Source: Owenia fusiformis (taxonomy: Eukaryota > Annelida > Polychaeta > Sabellida > Oweniidae). Taken from it: a stretch of 64,000 nucleotides of DNA. Of this stretch, positions 5,836 to 57,650 are shown one piece after another. The translations under genes were made by a program, and so were the position numbers. Numbering within the stretch: position 1 is the stretch's first letter; the number at the start of each line of letters is the position of its first letter. The notes under the pieces are model-generated. The model was not told the DNA's origin, did not search any database, and was given only the letters and a program-made list of their open reading frames with translations. Where the stretch lies: the NCBI GenBank assembly GCA_903813345.2, contig CAIIXF020000001.1, positions 51,787,885 through 51,851,884 of the forward strand, read 5' to 3'.

Positions 5836-7640
5836 AAGACACATACACACATGGTACATGCACATAAGACATAAACCTAAAAGATACATACACATATGAT
5901 ACATGCACATAAGACACAAACATAGAAGACACATACACACATGCACATAAACCTTGAAGATCCATGTGTAGATAAGACACACACGTAGTGTACACATATG
6001 ATACATGCACATAAGACACAAACATAGAAGACACATACACATATGATTCATGCACATAATACACAAACTTAGAAGACACACACATATGATACATGCACAT
6101 AAGACACAAAAATAGAAGACACATGCACATATGATACATGCACATAAGACATAAACCTAGAAGATACATACACATATGATACATGCACATAAGACACAAA
6201 CATAGAAGACACATACACATATAATACATACACATAAGACACAAACATAGAAGACACATACACATATAATACATGCACATAAGACACAAACATAGAATAC
6301 ACATACACACATGACACATGCACATAAACCTTGAAGATACATACACATATGACATGTGTACATAAGACACACACGTAGTATACACATATAATACATGCAC
6401 ATAAGACACAAACATAGAAGACACATACACATATGATACATGCGCATAAGACACAAACATAGAAGACACATATGATATATGCACATAAGACACACACGTA
6501 GAATACACATATGATACATGCACATAATACACAAACTTAGAAGACACACACATATATGATACATGCATATGAGACACAAACATAGAAGACACATATGATA
6601 CATGCGCATAAAACACAAACATAGAAGACACATATGATATATGCACATAAGACACACACGTAGAATACACATATGATATATGCACATAAGACACACACGT
6701 AGAATACACATATGATACATGCACATAAGACACAAACATAGAAGACACATACACATATGATACATGCAGATGATACACAAACTTAGAAGACACACACACA
6801 TATGATACATGCACATAAGACACAAACATAGAAGACACATACACATATGATACATGCACATAAGACATAAACCTAGAAGATACATACACATATGATACAT
6901 GCACATAAGACACAAACATAGAAGACACATACACATATAATACATGCACATAAGACACAAACATAGAAGACACATACACATATAATACATGCACATAAGA
7001 CACAAACATAGAAGATACATACACATATGACATGTGTACATAAGACACACACGTAGTATACACATATGATACATGCGCATAAGACACAAACATAGAAGAC
7101 ACATATGATATATGCACATAAGACACACACGTAGAATACACATATGATACATGCACATAAGACACAAACATAGAAGACACATACACATATGATACATGCA
7201 CATAATACACAAACTTAGAAGACACACACATATATGATACATGCATATAAGACACAAACATAGAAGACACATACACATATGATACATGCGCATAAGACAC
7301 AAACATAGAAGACACATATGATATATGCACATAAGACACACACGTAGAATACACATATGATACATACACATAAGACACAAACATAGAAGACACATACACA
7401 TATGATACATGCAGATGATACACAAACTTAGAAGACACACACACATATGATACATGCACACAAGACACAAACATAGAAGACACATACACATATGATACAT
7501 GCACATAAGACATAAAGCTAGAAGATACATACACATATGCCATATGTACATAAGGCACACACGTAGAATACACATATGATACATGCACATAAGACACAAA
7601 CTTAGAAGACAAAACGTATATGACAATTACACATGAGACA
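5836..7640. repeat. Minisatellite with 45-bp and 39-bp units (about 40 copies)
   Basis: The array is built on GATACATGCACATAAGACAC followed by AAACATAGAAGACACATAC and ACATAT. Full units are 45 bp. Shorter variants with ACACGTAGAATACACATAT are 39 bp. Nearly all length variants are multiples of three, so two minus-strand frames stay open for 601 and 489 codons, reading as repeats such as YVHVSYVYVSSMFVS. Two overlapping open frames, extreme composition and no flanking exon signals argue against a protein. Higher-order blocks, in which sets of variants recur, suggest growth by unequal exchange. Confidence 0.9.
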
Positions 7641-7716
7641 AAAACAAAAATGACACACGTACATTGGGTCCAAACGCCGAAGACACAGACATAGAATAGA
7701 TCAAATGTGACATTTT

Positions 7717-39749: not shown

Positions 39750-40924
39750 GTATTGTATATGTTGTTGTTGTTGTTTTTTTTATTATCATAGTAATTTTTT
39801 TTACAAAGATTTTTCAAAAAGTTGCCGAAGCAAACATTATATTGGCAACTATACATATAAACACACTACAATAAAATTATACAAAAATATATAGATTTTG
39901 ACAATACAAAAATGGGCTGCTGGTGGTTGGTTGGTAGTTTGGTTGGAGTAGGTGAAAGGAATAGGTAGCATGATCTTATTCAACAAGTTTGATAGATTCA
40001 TTAATAAAGGTACTTGTAATAGACAAAACTTCTCTATTTGTTTCAATATTTAAAAAGTTAATTCCATACAAAAGAGTTTCAATTTTATCATCTTGTTTCA
40101 AATTGTTAAAGGAGAAATTTATGTCATGCATGGTAAATAATCCATTTAGCCTGTCAAGCATTTGGTGTCTTATATCATTGTTGAGGCGACAGTGTAAGAG
40201 GAAATGCTTTGTGGTTTGTTTTAAACCACATCTACATACATCAGAATCGATAGTTGTAAAAGAGTGGGCCATTTTATGTGCATTTAACAAGAGGCCAACA
40301 CGTAATTGGTTCAGTTTGATTTCCGAATTACGGGGAAGAGATAAATTTTGTGAATTTGTCTGAATATTTTGAAAATTTTGGAAGTGCTTTTTGATTTGGC
40401 CTTTGAAAGAAGAGATAGTAGGCACCTGCCTGAGCTGTAATGGTAAGGAGTCCCAAATTTTAGAAAAAAGGATAGCTCCACTATCCTTGAACCTGGTAGA
40501 AATATGTAATGGGATGTGATAGGTTGGCCTATCCCTTAACTCTATTCCTATTGGTACAGGTGTCAAAAGTCTAAAAATATCTCTGATATATGAAGGGCAC
40601 ATATTATGTTTTACCTTGAACATTAACACACCTATGTGTGATAATCGTCTGGCTTCTAAAGTTGGCCAGTTTAGAATTTTCAAAAGTTTGTCGCCATTTG
40701 ATCCATGCAGAGCTCCAGATACTAAGATTGCAGCTCTATAGTGCAAGGTATCTAGCAATTTTAAGGTTGTTTTGTTACTGCCGTGGTATAAAATGTCACA
40801 GTAATCGAAGTGTGGAGAAATATAAGAATTGTAAATAAGATCAAGGTGAGCTGACTTTACTTTATTTTTAATGGCCTTTAAGGGATTTAACATTTTCTGG
40901 ACCTTTGCAGTTAGTTCTCTTACG
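39750..40924 (-). mobile_element. LINE (CR1/L2/Jockey-like) 3' part: C-terminal RT region and 3' UTR
   Basis: On the minus strand the frame from 40924 to the stop at 39976 encodes the post-RT region of a non-LTR retrotransposon polyprotein: VRELTAKVQKMLNPL, YNSYISPHFDYCDILYHG, a WDSLPLQLRQ segment and the final CRCGLKQTTKHFLLHC cysteine-histidine motif. The 3' UTR runs to about 39750, near a TTG/GTT simple repeat. It continues directly, in frame, with 48354-49872 once the intervening 7.4-kb array is removed: the subtraction is 7432 bases and the joined frame has no stop for about 800 codons. Confidence 0.88.
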
Positions 40925-43900
40925 GATATAGTCCTGAGTAAGGACATTAGCGGTTACCGTTAGTGATTTGGTTTTCTGAATAAAAAGTCATTTTCTCCTT
41001 CCCTACCCCATTGGAGCGCCATCTAGCGTTTGGGAAGTGAATCGGGAATAAATATTTATAGGGTAGGTCCTAATTTATCTGAAAACATGTCAGAGTTCAG
41101 TGGGAAATCTCATTTTAAGCTGGCGGCGGAGTGATTTTGACCTTGGTGATTTTACCAGAATTCTCTGAGAAATCTGACGATAGAGGGGGTTAGTGTCTTC
41201 AAGTTTATTTATTTCAAAAATTCGGTGGACAACCCATGGTAAGATTGTTATAGCAGGCTAGGCGAGTCTCTCCCGAACACTGTGGTATGTTGCACTAGGC
41301 TTGGATACTAATCGTTAATAAGATACAGGGTAAAATGTTATAATGGCCACCTATGGGAAACTCTACTGTGATCTTCAACCTATTAGAAGGCGCTTTTTTG
41401 GGGCATTTTGAAGGTTTTATCCCTTTTTGAGGTTTTTTAGTTCATTGAGAAGCCTAATAGCGCATATCATATTAAAGGGCTGTATCTTAGCTGAACAATG
41501 CTACCAAAATCGTGACATTTTGAAGCAATTTTGGTGTTTTGGGGGCGAGGCCACTGTGCCAAGTACCCCGAATTCCATTCTCCCGTGCCATTCAATTGTT
41601 TTCGGGGCAGTTTTGAATGAACCTTTGTTTCTTCCTACCAATATGACGTCATACGATGCAATTGAACGCCTTGGCATGGATATCACTTGAAAGATAGTAG
41701 AAATCGCTTTCCAATGATACCCCATATGGCCATGTTCACCTCAGTTGGGTGTACTCAATCTGTGGTGCAATCTGTAAGGTGTACCCCTACCCCAAAGAAA
41801 TTTCAAGAAATCTCAAAATCAAATTTCCTGAATTTTGCTAAAAGGACCTGTGTCTATAAGGATTGAATTTTCCTCCGTGCTTTTTCTCAAATATAGGATT
41901 GTTATATACCATTGTGATCGGGATAATGCCTACAATGCTAATATAACCATGTTGGAAGAAAACAAACTAATTCAGTTTACTATTAGGATATAGTCCTGAG
42001 TAAGGACATTAGCGGTTACCGTTAGTGATTTGGTTTTCTGAATAAAAAGTCATTTTCTCCTTCCCTACCCCATTGGAGCGCCATCTAGCGTTTGGGAAGT
42101 GAATCGGGAATAAATATTTATAGGGTAGGTCCTAATTTATCTGAAAACATGTCAGAGTTCAGTGGGAAATCTCATTTTAAGCTGGCGGCGGAGTGATTTT
42201 GACCTTGGTGATTTTACCAGAATTCTCTGAGAAATCTGACGATAGAGGGGGTTAGTGTCTTCAAGTTTATTTATTTCAAAAATTCGGTGGACAACCCATG
42301 GTAAGATTGTTATAGCAGGCTAGGCGAGTCTCTCCCGAACACTGTGGTATGTTGCACTAGGCTTGGATACTAATCGTTAATAAGATACAGGGTAAAATGT
42401 TATAATGGCCACCTATGGGAAACTCTACTGTGATCTTCAACCTATTAGAAGGCGCTTTTTTGGGGCATTTTGAAGGTTTTATCCCTTTTTGAGGTTTTTT
42501 AGTTCATTGAGAAGCCTAATAGCGCATATCATATTAAAGGGCTGTATCTTAGCTGAACAATGCTACCAAAATCGTGACATTTTGAAGCAATTTTGGTGTT
42601 TTGGGGGCGAGGCCACTGTGCCAAGTACCCCGAATTCCATTCTCCCGTGCCATTCAATTGTTTTCGGGGCAGTTTTGAATGAACCTTTGTTTCTTCCTAC
42701 CAATATGACGTCATACGATGCAATTGAACGCCTTGGCATGGATATCACTTGAAAGATAGTAGAAATCGCTTTCCAATGATACCCCATATGGCCATGTTCA
42801 CCTCAGTTGGGTGTACTCAATCTGTGGTGCAATCTGTAAGGTGTACCCCTACCCCAAAGAAATTTCAAGAAATCTCAAAATCAAATTTCCTGAATTTTGC
42901 TAAAAGGACCTGTGTCTATAAGGATTGAATTTTCCTCCGTGCTTTTTCTCAAATATAGGATTGTTATATACCATTGTGATCGGGATAATGCCTACAATGC
43001 TAATATAACCATGTTGGAAGAAAACAAACTAATTCAGTTTACTATTAGGATATAGTCCTGAGTAAGGACATTAGCGGTTACCGTTAGTGATTTGGTTTTC
43101 TGAATAAAAAGTCATTTTCTCCTTCCCTACCCCATTGGAGCGCCATCTAGCGTTTGGGAAGTGAATCGGGAATAAATATTTATAGGGTAGGTCCTAATTT
43201 ATCTGAAAACATGTCAGAGTTCAGTGGGAAATCTCATTTTAAGCTGGCGGCGGAGTGATTTTGACCTTGGTGATTTTACCAGAATTCTCTGAGAAATCTG
43301 ACGGTAGAGGGGGTTAGTGTCTTCAAGTTTATTTATTTCAAAAATTCGGTGGACAACCCATGGTAAGATTGTTATAGCAGGCTAGGCGAGTCTCTCCCGA
43401 ACACTGTGGTATGTTGCACTAGGCTTGGATACTAATCGTTAATAAGATACAGGGTAAAATGTTATAATGGCCACCTATGGGAAACTCTACTGTGATCTTC
43501 AACCTATTAGAAGGCGCTTTTTTGGGGCATTTTGAAGGTTTTATCCCTTTTTGAGGTTTTTTAGTTCATTGAGAAGCCTAATAGCGCATATCATATTAAA
43601 GGGCTGTATCTTAGCTGAACAATGCTACCAAAATCGTGACATTTTGAAGCAATTTTGGTGTTTTGGGGGCGAGGCCACTGTGCCAAGTACCCCGAATTCC
43701 ATTCTCCCGTGCCATTCAATTGTTTTCGGGGCAGTTTTGAATGAACCTTTGTTTCTTCCTACCAATATGACGTCATACGATGCAATTGAACGCCTTGGCA
43801 TGGATATCACTTGAAAGATAGTAGAAATCGCTTTCCAATGATACCCCATATGGCCATGTTCACCTCAGTTGGGTGTACTCAATCTGTGGTGCAATCTGTA

Positions 43901-46900
43901 AGGTGTACCCCTACCCCAAAGAAATTTCAAGAAATCTCAAAATCAAATTTCCTGAATTTTGCTAAAAGGACCTGTGTCTATAAGGATTGAATTTTCCTCC
44001 GTGCTTTTTCTCAAATATAGGATTGTTATATACCATTGTGATCGGGATAATGCCTACAATGCTAATATAACCATGTTGGAAGAAAACAAACTAATTCAGT
44101 TTACTATTAGGATATAGTCCTGAGTAAGGACATTAGCGGTTACCGTTAGTGATTTGGTTTTCTGAATAAAAAGTCATTTTCTCCTTCCCTACCCCATTGG
44201 AGCGCCATCTAGCGTTTGGGAAGTGAATCGGGAATAAATATTTATAGGGTAGGTCCTAATTTATCTGAAAACATGTCAGAGTTCAGTGGGAAATCTCATT
44301 TTAAGCTGGCGGCGGAGTGATTTTGACCTTGGTGATTTTACCAGAATTCTCTGAGAAATCTGACGATAGAGGGGGTTAGTGTCTTCAAGTTTATTTATTT
44401 CAAAAATTCGGTGGACAACCCATGGTAAGATTGTTATAGCAGGCTAGGCGAGTCTCTCCCGAACACTGTGGTATGTTGCACTAGGCTTGGATACTAATCG
44501 TTAATAAGATACAGGGTAAAATGTTATAATGGCCACCTATGGGAAACTCTACTGTGATCTTCAACCTATTAGAAGGCGCTTTTTTGGGGCATTTTGAAGG
44601 TTTTATCCCTTTTTGAGGTTTTTTAGTTCATTGAGAAGCCTAATAGCGCATATCATATTAAAGGGCTGTATCTTAGCTGAACAATGCTACCAAAATCGTG
44701 ACATTTTGAAGCAATTTTGGTGTTTTGGGGGCGAGGCCACTGTGCCAAGTACCCCGAATTCCATTCTCCCGTGCCATTCAATTGTTTTCGGGGCAGTTTT
44801 GAATGAACCTTTGTTTCTTCCTACCAATATGACGTCATACGATGCAATTGAACGCCTTGGCATGGATATCACTTGAAAGATAGTAGAAATCGCTTTCCAA
44901 TGATACCCCATATGGCCATGTTCACCTCAGTTGGGTGTACTCAATCTGTGGTGCAATCTGTAAGGTGTACCCCTACCCCAAAGAAATTTCAAGAAATCTC
45001 AAAATCAAATTTCCTGAATTTTGCTAAAAGGACCTGTGTCTATAAGGATTGAATTTTCCTCCGTGCTTTTTCTCAAATATAGGATTGTTATATACCATTG
45101 TGATCGGGATAATGCCTACAATGCTAATATAACCATGTTGGAAGAAAACAAACTAATTCAGTTTACTATTAGGATATAGTCCTGAGTAAGGACATTAGCG
45201 GTTACCGTTAGTGATTTGGTTTTCTGAATAAAAAGTCATTTTCTCCTTCCCTACCCCATTGGAGCGCCATCTAGCGTTTGGGAAGTGAATCGGGAATAAA
45301 TATTTATAGGGTAGGTCCTAATTTATCTGAAAACATGTCAGAGTTCAGTGGGAAATCTCATTTTAAGCTGGCGGCGGAGTGATTTTGACCTTGGTGATTT
45401 TACCAGAATTCTCTGAGAAATCTGACGGTAGAGGGGGTTAGTGTCTTCAAGTTTATTTATTTCAAAAATTCGGTGGACAACCCATGGTAAGATTGTTATA
45501 GCAGGCTAGGCGAGTCTCTCCCGAACACTGTGGTATGTTGCACTAGGCTTGGATACTAATCGTTAATAAGATACAGGGTAAAATGTTATAATGGCCACCT
45601 ATGGGAAACTCTACTGTGATCTTCAACCTATTAGAAGGCGCTTTTTTGGGGCATTTTGAAGGTTTTATCCCTTTTTGAGGTTTTTTAGTTCATTGAGAAG
45701 CCTAATAGCGCATATCATATTAAAGGGCTGTATCTTAGCTGAACAATGCTACCAAAATCGTGACATTTTGAAGCAATTTTGGTGTTTTGGGGGCGAGGCC
45801 ACTGTGCCAAGTACCCCGAATTCCATTCTCCCGTGCCATTCAATTGTTTTCGGGGCAGTTTTGAATGAACCTTTGTTTCTTCCTACCAATATGACGTCAT
45901 ACGATGCAATTGAACGCCTTGGCATGGATATCACTTGAAAGATAGTAGAAATCGCTTTCCAATGATACCCCATATGGCCATGTTCACCTCAGTTGGGTGT
46001 ACTCAATCTGTGGTGCAATCTGTAAGGTGTACCCCTACCCCAAAGAAATTTCAAGAAATCTCAAAATCAAATTTCCTGAATTTTGCTAAAAGGACCTGTG
46101 TCTATAAGGATTGAATTTTCCTCCGTGCTTTTTCTCAAATATAGGATTGTTATATACCATTGTGATCGGGATAATGCCTACAATGCTAATATAACCATGT
46201 TGGAAGAAAACAAACTAATTCAGTTTACTATTAGGATATAGTCCTGAGTAAGGACATTAGCGGTTACCGTTAGTGATTTGGTTTTCTGAATAAAAAGTCA
46301 TTTTCTCCTTCCCTACCCCATTGGAGCGCCATCTAGCGTTTGGGAAGTGAATCGGGAATAAATATTTATAGGGTAGGTCCTAATTTATCTGAAAACATGT
46401 CAGAGTTCAGTGGGAAATCTCATTTTAAGCTGGCGGCGGAGTGATTTTGACCTTGGTGATTTTACCAGAATTCTCTGAGAAATCTGACGATAGAGGGGGT
46501 TAGTGTCTTCAAGTTTATTTATTTCAAAAATTCGGTGGACAACCCATGGTAAGATTGTTATAGCAGGCTAGGCGAGTCTCTCCCGAACACTGTGGTATGT
46601 TGCACTAGGCTTGGATACTAATCGTTAATAAGATACAGGGTAAAATGTTATAATGGCCACCTATGGGAAACTCTACTGTGATCTTCAACCTATTAGAAGG
46701 CGCTTTTTTGGGGCATTTTGAAGGTTTTATCCCTTTTTGAGGTTTTTTAGTTCATTGAGAAGCCTAATAGCGCATATCATATTAAAGGGCTGTATCTTAG
46801 CTGAACAATGCTACCAAAATCGTGACATTTTGAAGCAATTTTGGTGTTTTGGGGGCGAGGCCACTGTGCCAAGTACCCCGAATTCCATTCTCCCGTGCCA

Positions 46901-48353
46901 TTCAATTGTTTTCGGGGCAGTTTTGAATGAACCTTTGTTTCTTCCTACCAATATGACGTCATACGATGCAATTGAACGCCTTGGCATGGATATCACTTGA
47001 AAGATAGTAGAAATCGCTTTCCAATGATACCCCATATGGCCATGTTCACCTCAGTTGGGTGTACTCAATCTGTGGTGCAATCTGTAAGGTGTACCCCTAC
47101 CCCAAAGAAATTTCAAGAAATCTCAAAATCAAATTTCCTGAATTTTGCTAAAAGGACCTGTGTCTATAAGGATTGAATTTTCCTCCGTGCTTTTTCTCAA
47201 ATATAGGATTGTTATATACCATTGTGATCGGGATAATGCCTACAATGCTAATATAACCATGTTGGAAGAAAACAAACTAATTCAGTTTACTATTAGAAGG
47301 CGCTTTTTTGGGGCATTTTGAAGGTTTTATCCCTTTTTGAGGTTTTTTAGTTCATTGAGAAGCCTAATAGCGCATATCATATTAAAGGGCTGTATCTTAG
47401 CTGAACAATGCTACCAAAATCGTGACATTTTGAAGCAATTTTGGTGTTTTGGGGGCGAGGCCACTGTGCCAAGTACCCCGAATTCCATTCTCCCGTGCCA
47501 TTCAATTGTTTTCGGGGCAGTTTTGAATGAACCTTTGTTTCTTCCTACCAATATGACGTCATACGATGCAATTGAACGCCTTGGCATGGATATCATTTGA
47601 AAGATAGTAGAAATCGCTTTCCAATGATACCCCATATGGCCATGTTCACCTCAGTTGGGTGTACTCAATCTGTGGTGCAATCTGTAAGGTGTACCCCTAC
47701 CCCAAAGAAATTTCAAGAAATCTCAAAATCAAATTTCCTGAATTTTGCTAAAAGGACCTGTGTCTATAAGGATTGAATTTTCCTCCGTGCTTTTTCTCAA
47801 ATATAGGATTGTTATATACCATTGTGATCGGGATAATGCCTACAATGCTAATATAACCATGTTGGAAGAAAACAAACTAATTCAGTTTACTATTAGGATA
47901 TAGTCCTGAGTAAGGACATTAGCGGTTACCGTTAGTGATTTGGTTTTCTGAATAAAAAGTCATTTTCTCCTTCCCTACCCCATTGGAGCGCCATCTAGCG
48001 TTTGGGAAGTGAATCGGGAATAAATATTTATAGGGTAGGTCCTAATTTATCTGAAAACATGTCAGAGTTCAGTGGGAAATCTCATTTTAAGCTGGCGGCG
48101 GAGTGATTTTGACCTTGGTGATTTTACCAGAATTCTCTGAGAAATCTGACGATAGAGGGGGTTAGTGTCTTCAAGTTTATTTATTTCAAAAATTCGGTGG
48201 ACAACCCATGGTAAGATTGTTATAGCAGGCTAGGCGAGTCTCTCCCGAACACTGTGGTATGTTGCACTAGGCTTGGATACTAATCGTTAATAAGATACAG
48301 GGTAAAATGTTATAATGGCCACCTATGGGAAACTCTACTGTGATCTTCAACCT
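40925..48353. repeat. 7.4-kb tandem array: seven 457-bp A blocks and seven 605-bp B blocks inserted in a LINE
   Basis: The unit is 1062 bp: A (GATATAGTCCTGAGTAAGGA ... CTTCAACCT) plus B (ATTAGAAGGCGC ... TTTACTATTAG). A starts at 40925, 41987, 43049, 44111, 45173, 46235 and 47897. The order is (AB)x6, B, A: one A is missing between B6 (46692) and B7 (47292), where two blocks fuse at TATTAG, a word present at both A/B junctions. Copies are almost identical; the only differences I saw are GACGATAG versus GACGGTAG (A3, A5) and ATCACTTG versus ATCATTTG (B7). The insert begins with A and ends with A, and ACG flanks both ends (40922-40924, 48354-48356). The 87- and 74-codon frames in B have no recognisable product. 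Type of element unresolved. Confidence 0.95.
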
Positions 48354-49872
48354 ACGTGAACTTCATACGAAAGTGTGTCGTCCAAGTGAAAACCTATGTG
48401 TTTGTGGCTATCAACTATAGGAATGTTTTGATTTGAGAGGGTCAAAGGTTGGTGAACTGGCTTTGGAGTTCCTATTGTTCTAAAGGTCAAATCTCTGCTC
48501 TTCACAGCTTTAAAGTGCATTTTCCATAACTGAGACCATTGTTCAAGGGAGTTTAAGTCATTTTGAAGAAGTCTGCTGTTATTTGGAGAATGTTTCATAT
48601 AGGTGAAGTAAATGGACGTATCGTCGGCATAAATGTAGCTTCTTGAGTTTAAATTGTCTGGCAAATCATTAATGTATAAGAGAAAGAGCAAAGGTCCCAG
48701 GATTGATCCCTGGGGAACACCTGCATTTATATCATCATGATTTGAATATTCGGTTGAGGAGCCGTTGATAGAAACTCTAATTTTTCTATTTGTGAGGTAA
48801 GAACTAATCAATTTTATAAGATTATTGCAAAAACCATAACTTCTGAGCTTATGAATAAGTAGTTTATGCGGAACAGTATCAAACGCAGCCGCGAGATCTA
48901 GGAAAATAGTACGAACATTGTTTCCTTTACTCAATTCAGTATTAATATAATAAATAATTGAAACTAGCTGAAGTGTGGTACTGTGGCCTTTGAGGAATCC
49001 TGACTGACGTTCATATATCAAGTTATTGGAGATCAGGTAAGTGCTAAGTTTGTTATAGATAACTCTTTCATAGACTTTAGAAATGGTATTCAGCAACGTA
49101 ATTGGTCTATAATTTTCACATCTGGACTTAGGACCTTTCTTATGAATAAGGCTTACATCACCTTCTTTCCAGGTGTCAGGAAAATGATTGCCTACCAGAA
49201 GTTTGTTAAATAATTTTGTTAAAGGAAGTGACATTGCGTCTGGACACAATTTAAGCATTTCATTCGATATCTTATCAGGGCCATTTGATTTGCCATTTTC
49301 CAGTTCTTTAATCAGTTTAAGTATTTCACTAGAGTCAGTTTGAAAAGTTTCTAAAGTTAGATTTGTTCTCATTGGAAAAATAGGATAATTAACAACATTA
49401 TCAACTCTCATTTTCTTTATGAGATGTCTATGAAAAATATTAGCTTTTTCAAGGCTGGTAACACCAATAAGGTTTGTTACTGCTTCAGTAATAACTGGTA
49501 TTGCACTGTTGAACCTTTTCCCAAGTAGTTTATTAATCATTGGCCAGAAGTCATTAGAATTTGCCGTATTTTGATTAAGCTTGGTACAAAAATCATTTTC
49601 AAAGTTTTCTTTCGCTTCGCCTATTTGGCGCTCAACAACTAAGCATTGCTCCTTATACAAATCAAAGTGTGAAATAGTATTAGTTATCTTAAACCTTCGA
49701 TAAAGTCTATCACGCTTATTGATACTTCGCTTGATGGCATTATTAAACCATGGTTGATCTCTTGTTCGAATATTAACTTGCTTATGTGGTATAAATTGGC
49801 AAAACAAATTATATAATGAGTTTACAAAGTTTGAAGTTACATGATTTATTGTATATGGCCATAAAATTGTGG
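48354..49872 (-). mobile_element. LINE (CR1/L2/Jockey-like) 5' part: reverse transcriptase domain
   Basis: Minus-strand frame from about 49872 down to the array. It carries the pre-RT region (TRDQPWFNNAIKRSINKR), then RT motifs NGKSNGPDKISNEMLK, NYRPITLLNTISKVYE, RQSGFLKGHSTTLQL, FLDLAAAFDTVPH, NAGVPQGSILGPLLFLLYIN, the catalytic YADDTSIYF and HKHIGFHLDDTLSY. There is no endonuclease domain: homology to the segment shared with 15.0 kb starts at about 49873, so the element is 5'-truncated there. No stop interrupts the RT, so the copy is young. Insertion of the array at 48354 ended the ORF. Confidence 0.92.
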
Positions 49873-50118
49873 CCTTGGGCTTAAATTCTTTTCACACATA
49901 AATATTTTCAACAAAATCATCTAAAAGATACGAACATATTTTCATTGAAACTTTTCTCATGGGTCAAACTGGCAAAGTATCAGTTGCAATCTCTAGAGTC
50001 CAGTCATCACCATGACAATCGTTTAACTAGTGACCTTGAGTTTGTTATTGGTTATATAACGGAATGCAGTTACGTAAAATAGCTTGAATTGGACACACCT
50101 TGCCTAGTTATGTGTGAA
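49873..50118 (+). repeat. Segment homologous to 14955-15244, upstream of gene B
   Basis: Matches the RASD-intron segment in order (CTTGGGCTTAAATTCTTTTC, TCTAAAAGATACG, CTGGCAAAGTATCAGTTGCA, GACACACCTTGCCTAGTTAT). It lies between the LINE 5' end and gene B exon 1. It may contain promoter DNA of gene B or simply be a repeat the LINE inserted into. Confidence 0.65.
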
Positions 50119-56559: not shown

Positions 56560-57650
56560 TCTCGAAATTTCAAAACGCCATAACTTTTGAATCGGAAGTC
56601 GGATCGAAATTTGGTTTGCAGACTCGGATTCCTGAGAAAATTCTACCCTTAATTCATAACTCATATGTTAAATTTGGAGAACTTTTTATTTTGACCTACT
56701 TTTCGGACACCATATCTCAAAAGTGGGTAGAAATACTTTCTGACGGCAAAGGCTAACACTATAAGCACACTTTGTCCTACCTGTATACAAAATTTTGAAG
56801 CAAATCATTTAAACATAGTGTCAGAATCGCAAAAATAAGGAAAAACTATGAATTTGACCTAGATTTTGACCTGGGGATTTTGGTGTCCAAATTTTGAAGT
56901 TAGGTAGCCTTCGAGGTCCCCTTCTTTCATAGGCTTTCATTATTTTAAGCTGTACTTAGTCTATATCTCGAATTTTACACTTCAAAAAAATCTTTTTTCC
57001 CATTGACATAACATGGGGCACCAAATTTAGCGATTTTTGAGCTTTCAAAATGTCATAACTTCCGAACAGGAAGTCGGATCGAAATTTGATTTGCAGATTC
57101 GGATTCCTGAGAAAATTCTATACTTAATTCATAACTCAAACGTTAAATTTGGAGAATTTTTTATTTTGACCTACTTTTCGGACACCATATCTCAAAAGTG
57201 GGGCAAAATACTTTCTGACGGCAAAAGGCTAACACTATTAGCACACTCTTGGCTACATGTATACAAAATTTTGAAGAATATAATTAATCTGTAGTGTCAG
57301 AATCGCAAAAATAAGGAAAAACTTTGAATTTGACCTAGATTTTGACCTAGGCATTTTGGTGTCCAAATATTTATGAAAAAAAGGTCTTGTGGTCCCTTTC
57401 TTTTATGGGCTTCCATTATGTTTAGCTGTGCTTAGTCTATATCTCGTATTTTACACTTCAAAAAAATATTTTTTTCCATTGAATTAACATGGGGCACCAA
57501 ATTTAGCGATTTTTGAATTTTCAAAACGCCATAACTTCTGAACCGGAAGTCTGATCGAAATTTGGTTTTCAGATTCGGAATCCTGAGAAAATTTCCTATA
57601 AGACTGATATCCTGGACATTGGATTCGGAGAACTTTTTTTGGACCTCGTT
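56560..57650 (+). repeat. ~475-bp tandem repeat, three copies
   Basis: Copies start at about 56565, 57040 and 57515 with a variant of GAAGTCGGATCGAAATTTGG. They share GATTCCTGAGAAAATTCTA, CTACTTTTCGGACACCATAT and CATAGTGTCAGAATCGC. Copies 1 and 2 are close; copy 3 is diverged and truncated. Noncoding; gene B intron 2. Confidence 0.85.

Follow-up and report, generated by a model that had tools for sequence, protein, structure and literature searches.

A 64,000-nucleotide stretch of the Owenia fusiformis genome (contig CAIIXF020000001.1, forward-strand positions 51,787,885 to 51,851,884; hereafter the window) carries a long interspersed nuclear element (LINE) whose reading frame is interrupted by a tandem array. 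This array is very probably a multimer of a non-autonomous DNA transposon of the KolobokP lineage. It spans 40924-48352 (coordinates are window positions unless a contig such as C2 or C5 is named) and is built from seven copies each of block A (457 bp) and block B (595 bp), in the order A B A B A B A B A B A B B A, with the spacer TATTA at every A/B, B/A and B/B border. The A copies start at 40924, 41986, 43048, 44110, 45172, 46234 and 47896. Five A-to-A spacings are thus 1062 bp and one is 1662 bp (A+B+B), followed by the closing A. An earlier sequence-only reading had proposed seven 1062-bp copies: the tandem array stands, the equality of the units does not, as five are 1062 bp, one is 1662 bp with a doubled B, and a lone A closes the series. 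It rightly placed the 457-bp A at the beginning (A1, 40924) and end (A7, to 48352), and the near-identity of the copies is borne out by a single variable site among the A copies, at position 257, and a single one among the B copies. The features are as follows, A being the long terminal direct repeat (LTDR) and B the internal region (INT) of the element.

39979..40923, minus strand: interrupted LINE frame, left-hand part
40921..40923, no strand: target duplication, left copy (TAC)
40924..41380, plus strand: A1, LTDR, outer left end
41381..41385, no strand: TATTA spacer, tip of the internal region
41386..41980, plus strand: B1, INT, non-coding; positions 194-585 are 69% identical to the interior end of a coding element
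41986..42442, plus strand: A2
42448..43042, plus strand: B2
43048..43504, plus strand: A3, A>G at position 257
43510..44104, plus strand: B3
44110..44566, plus strand: A4
44572..45166, plus strand: B4
45172..45628, plus strand: A5, A>G at position 257
45634..46228, plus strand: B5
46234..46690, plus strand: A6
46696..47290, plus strand: B6, followed by B7 across one TATTA (an LTDR was probably lost here)
47296..47890, plus strand: B7, one substitution
47896..48352, plus strand: A7, LTDR, outer right end
48353..48355, no strand: target duplication, right copy (TAC)
48356..49891, minus strand: interrupted LINE frame, right-hand part, with RVT_1

The array is flanked on the left by TTACG running into GATATAG and on the right by CAACC running into TACGTGAAC. 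Because of these letters, duplications of TAC and of ACG are not separable at this locus. Other insertions of the family set the element ends at GGATATAG and TTCAACC, and the window duplication is therefore TAC; the 3 bp first proposed were correct in number, their identity as ACG was not. Removal of 7432 bases restores an open frame on the minus strand, as had been claimed for about 800 codons, and its length is 827 codons. The right part of this frame matches RVT_1 (3.2e-32, Pfam), while the left part matches no Pfam family at E 0.001. The joined, empty site is matched over 298 bases by five other LINE copies at 96-100% identity. Reading of the site in four of these showed no insert; the fifth, L092, was missed by the search word. 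Around the site, identity to the interrupted LINE is 98-99.8% in four copies and 94-96% in L092, which makes the insertion a young one. Within the window, A and B match the remaining sequence over at most 22 bases, and two further tandem arrays are present, at 5836-7657 (45/90-bp unit) and 56564-57593 (476-bp unit, 2.2 copies).

The same blocks occur throughout the 498-Mb assembly of about 12 long contigs. A search for the initial 22 bases of A following a base other than A gave 59 exact matches on 11 contigs, window counted; all 59 loci were fetched, and extra B-rich loci and array ends were added. The blocks assemble into 83 chains (79 loci plus the window), 49 of which have both ends in hand, and 47 remain once L037 and L077, cut pieces of arrays, are left out. 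These comprise 22 solo A, three more that are internally deleted, 11 A-B-A (the first A is diverged in one of them), three A-B and two A-A, together with single cases of AABA, ABBA, ABBBA, ABBBBA, AABBAA and the window array. No INT-LTDR form is found among the 83 chains. Solo A, A-B-A and arrays scattered over the genome have the fixed ends GGATATAG...TTCAACC in common. These are the other A-B-A and solo A copies for which a search had been suggested from the window alone.

The flanks were compared, again as had been suggested, at 51 insertions. One copy (L020) of the insertion also present at L068 was left out, as was L018, whose flank is too short for the script (its duplication is an exact GAG), and six separately cut arrays were added. 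Identical 3-bp flanks are found at 45 of the 51, where shuffling the right ends among loci yields 5.7 (maximum 13 in 2000 trials). In the 45 matching sites the duplication reads D-W-H (45/45, 44/45 and 44/45 by position), the base before it is C or T in 34 and the base after it A or G in 38. One base further out, C or T is found on the right in 35 of 45, and the mirror base on the left is A or G in 26 of 45, which is not an enrichment. The target preference is Y-DWH-R, close to a palindrome but not cleanly so.

Several loci show how individual copies have changed. L020 and L068 (C11:9.63 Mb and 15.97 Mb) hold the same A insertion with the same flanks, compared over 12 bases per side, and one of the two copies has an internal deletion of A; the DNA around this insertion was probably duplicated after the insertion. 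The A blocks at L050, L054 and L057 are interrupted by other inserts of about 340, 380 and 650 bp.

The borders between blocks are informative as well. Among the 20 B-B borders in the fetched pieces, 14 are TATTA, four TAATA, one TTAATA and one irregular; five A-A borders are TATTA and one is TATATAC. A large array on C2 carries TATTA and TAATA B-B borders alike, so that either INT tip can survive and A must have been lost at least twice there, unless the spacers were converted later. Irregular spacers at L022 and L040, TTAATA (B-B) and TATTAATA (A-B), look like two-spacer joints minus a few bases, as LTDR excision would leave. Three A-B insertions (L027, L062 and L069) have exact duplications. 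A working outer end at the right of B was considered for them and set aside: all three duplications start with TA, like the spacer, and loss of the last A is hence the simpler reading. Independent mobility of B was also considered and found no support among the matches listed. A pattern for B starts after a base other than A, with a mismatch allowed, gave 148 matches, and the 100 listed all have the base A in front of B and one mismatch; the one B end followed by a base other than T sits in a broken array, L031.

A coding relative was found through its nuclease. A search with PF05551 (I-PpoI-type His-Me nuclease) gave 54 matches in the genome and none in 14 control genomes, a control that is thus uninformative on sensitivity. 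One of five fetched loci, at C5:31.47 Mb, adjoins sequence 90% identical to full-length A. The element there (C5:31470174-31474791) has a 3.7-kb interior between two identical LTDRs of 459 bp; a GAT copy flanks it on either side, and the interior carries TATTA at each tip. Its nuclease frame matches PF05551 at 7.8e-14, with I-PpoI as the best solved relative (2.2e-6). On the opposite strand lies a transposase frame of 771 codons, whose two parts hit PF20700 (Mutator-like transposase) with 1.4e-25 and 5e-24. The closing part of this interior and B share 69% identity along 395 bp, and A-B-A is therefore a non-autonomous relative with an internal deletion. The sequence-only reading had proposed to look for an autonomous partner, and the C5 element is a candidate with closely similar ends and the same layout. 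A mobile element with terminal direct repeats A-B-A, one of the two origins that reading had offered, is borne out by the solo A, A-B-A and array forms with their fixed ends, their own duplications and the coding relative.

Other protein-based leads were followed. A Harbinger origin was rejected: PF13359 gave 150 scored matches (of 269 candidates), and the eight fetched loci were without the five exact A-end words. PF07592, tried for its link to Zator, has no match in this genome and none in the control genomes either, so that its absence is uninformative. The nuclease gene on C313, C513, C443 and C418 repeats at about 3345 and 3820 bases (4295 once, on C313), as if another coding KolobokP family formed long arrays in which an LTDR of about 475 bp is sometimes missing or doubled. 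L103, a 3.3-kb piece, has only short matches, of at most 27 bases, to the C5 LTDR.

The properties of the array and its family place it, very probably, in KolobokP, a lineage of animal transposons published recently, with no new mechanism. In the part of Kojima & Bao 2022 (PMC9587614) drawn on here, KolobokP elements have an INT between two direct LTDRs, each about 450 or 660 bp long; A is 457 bp long and the LTDR of the C5 element 459 bp. Published ends are RR..YY, and those found here are GG..CC in the window family and GA..CC in the C5 element. Duplications are 3-4 or 4-5 bp by family and 3-5 bp overall, a range that includes the 3 bp seen at 45 of 51 insertions. In KolobokP coding copies the interior encodes a transposase on one strand and an I-PpoI-like His-Me nuclease on the other, as in the C5 element. 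Solo LTDRs and (LTDR-INT)n-LTDR forms, usually flanked by duplications, are described, and both occur in this genome with their duplications. In LTDR-(INT)n-LTDR the INT-INT border retains one INT tip, as the B-B borders do here, and LTDR-INT forms are ascribed to LTDR excision. Owenia fusiformis itself is named among the hosts.

Some observations weigh against this assignment. The window copy is non-coding, its longest stop-free stretch being 92 codons. KolobokP LTDRs are described as ending in perfect or imperfect inverted repeats of 11-18 bp (PMC9587614, same part), and A shows a weak one, with 10 of 17 positions, a score reached by 0.5% of interior pairs; the C5 LTDR has 9 of 17, reached by 2.1%. 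Six of the 51 scored insertions are without identical 3-bp flanks. Among these, L004 agrees if its A ends two bases further, L005, L009, L064 and L065 have flanks that differ at one base, and the mismatch at L017 has no explanation. Positions 1-193 of B do not match the coding C5 element, and no exact match in the genome to the outermost 16 bases of A, at either end, has a different interior. The C5 element, only 90% like A, need not be the actual helper. Its transposase matches a Mutator-like model in Pfam, and its putative Kolobok label rests on layout, nuclease and one DxxH motif.

How the array grew is best considered beside the larger arrays. The longest, of 48.9 kb, lies at C2:6.60-6.65 Mb with its ends at L034 and L035 and GAT on both sides; two inner 9.9-kb pieces were read and are unbroken block chains, the remainder being known from the listing of B starts. 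Matching 3-bp ends also bound arrays on C4 (26.5 kb, TAT), C12 (13.2 kb, GAA), C9 (ACT), C3 (ATA) and at C2:18.80 Mb (ATA). In four arrays (7, 9, 20 and 8 fetched units), B differences are 0-0.56 within and 2.4-8.0 between arrays. For A the contrast is weaker: differences within those arrays are 0-0.48, and between arrays they are only 0.06 for C2 versus C4 and 0.47 for the window versus C12.

First and last A were compared at the 29 loci whose fetched sequence contains two or more complete A copies. Within a locus they are on average 2.4 bases apart, the old locus L065 contributing 35, while between loci the mean is 10.10 differences at equal and at unequal positions alike. The first A is nearest to the last A of its own locus at 15 of 29 loci, tied at 9 and farther at 5. 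Private A substitutions shared by all copies of a locus number 29, spread over 14 of the 29 loci, and another 50 occur in some copies only, 27 of them in L065. The corresponding counts for B are nine in all copies (6 of 8 loci) and nine in some. Left and right repeats thus do not form separate lineages. A fixed A-B-A moved by plain conservative transposition would not be expected to give this pattern, which favours local copying (by unequal exchange, gene conversion or nuclease-induced repair), rolling-circle copying or export of pieces from homogenised arrays, three routes that a single assembly does not distinguish.

In the proposed sequence of events, an A-B-A or a longer A...A piece would have inserted into a young LINE copy, and a coding KolobokP element, that at C5:31.47 Mb for example, would have provided the transposase. 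Multiplication of A-B-A by recombination, as envisaged at the outset, is likely. The array probably, if by no great degree of confidence, reached its present length mainly after insertion, as adjacent A repeats underwent unequal exchange or break-induced copying. Under such growth both ends remain A and the duplication is unaffected. The doubled B would reflect one A lost through excision or deletion, with a single spacer left behind.

The same element could also have arrived as a finished multimer: rolling-circle replication of an A-B circle would yield a concatemer, from which an A...A stretch was inserted whole. The near-identical, array-specific B units, the proximity of first and last A within a locus (2.4 against 10.1 between loci) with no left and right lineages, and the single 3-bp duplication bounding entire arrays count in favour of such a route. 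Local unequal exchange or gene conversion yields equal homogeneity, however, no circle was seen, no search having been aimed at one, and a one-step insertion of 48.9 kb would be unusual, so that the circle route appears rather unlikely. A tentative extension, less likely than not, is that KolobokP multimers are a breeding form: arrays would make identical units locally, and A...A pieces differing in length would be exported from them by the transposase. A new insertion would then owe its two LTDRs to one repeat, the composite structure would be self-renewing, and the absence of left and right LTDR lineages would be accounted for.

Explanations outside KolobokP fare much worse. A small long terminal repeat (LTR) retrotransposon, or terminal-repeat retrotransposon in miniature (TRIM), with tandem forms of the type TDRx_I(x-1) like the bivalve biv-TRIM, would have a similar direct-repeat layout with solo repeats and arrays (available portion of PMC6934838), and the two A of one locus are usually closer to each other than to those of other loci, as LTRs are. 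The ends are GG..CC and not TG..CA, as noted when A was first judged not to be a standard LTR, and the duplication is 3 bp. In an LTR retrotransposon a tRNA primer site follows the left repeat and a purine tract precedes the right one; here a TGG first occurs 18 nt past the left repeat, and the best purine-rich stretch stops about 20 nt before the right repeat. A doubled B is unexpected, and the related C5 element encodes a transposase and a nuclease; a TRIM is accordingly very improbable. An assembly artefact, or a plain satellite trapped in the LINE, is no more credible: near-identical tandem units are difficult to assemble, but many loci share fixed ends, each with its own duplication, and the short forms (A, A-B-A) require no hard assembly. 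The exact unit number of the window array could be wrong. A retrozyme-like circular-RNA element integrated as a multimer, suggested by the tandem non-coding direct-repeat units, can be dismissed almost entirely, since a retrozyme repeat carries a self-cleaving ribozyme, whereas an Rfam search of both strands of 40900-43100, a span of two units, gave six matches up to E 10 with no ribozyme among them, and both the ends and the coding relative point to a DNA transposon.

The KolobokP reading settles an odd-looking array as a multimer and shows how a DNA transposon can give rise, wherever it ordinarily inserts, to satellite-like arrays tens of kilobases long. Its long repeated ends would let a single insertion grow into a chain of copies. 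The length of the arrays, their near-identical and array-specific B units, the absence of separate left and right LTDR lineages and the target preference are new here. The family thereby provides a young, genome-wide data set for two KolobokP questions, the origin of multimers and the upkeep of two alike terminal repeats.

Kolobok elements at large make TTAA-specific 4-bp duplications, whereas those of the window family are 3 bp. Within KolobokP, the closest likeness of form is to the non-autonomous families, for example KolobokP-4N1_CorFlu (LTDR 473 bp), which likewise have an LTDR of about 450 bp, RR..YY ends, a duplication in the 3-5 bp range, and solo LTDR, LTDR-INT-LTDR, both multimer types and LTDR-INT, as described in the part of PMC9587614 drawn on above. 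Against that same part, the monomer is about 1.52 kb here and 1,738-3,261 bp in oyster non-autonomous families, one array here extends to 48.9 kb, unlike those published, and a Y-DWH-R preference is seen where no strong one is reported. The biv-TRIM and other tandem TRIMs (available portion of PMC6934838) are alike in being direct-repeat elements with solo repeats and Rx I(x-1) arrays; they are LTR retrotransposons, whereas the window family has the ends, the duplication length and the coding relative of a DNA transposon. Satellites borne by miniature inverted-repeat transposable elements, such as Xstir and miDNA4 (PMC12628747, in the section concerned), likewise join a non-autonomous DNA transposon to tandem arrays. 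There an internal piece is multiplied, whereas the window array multiplies the whole unit of repeat plus interior.

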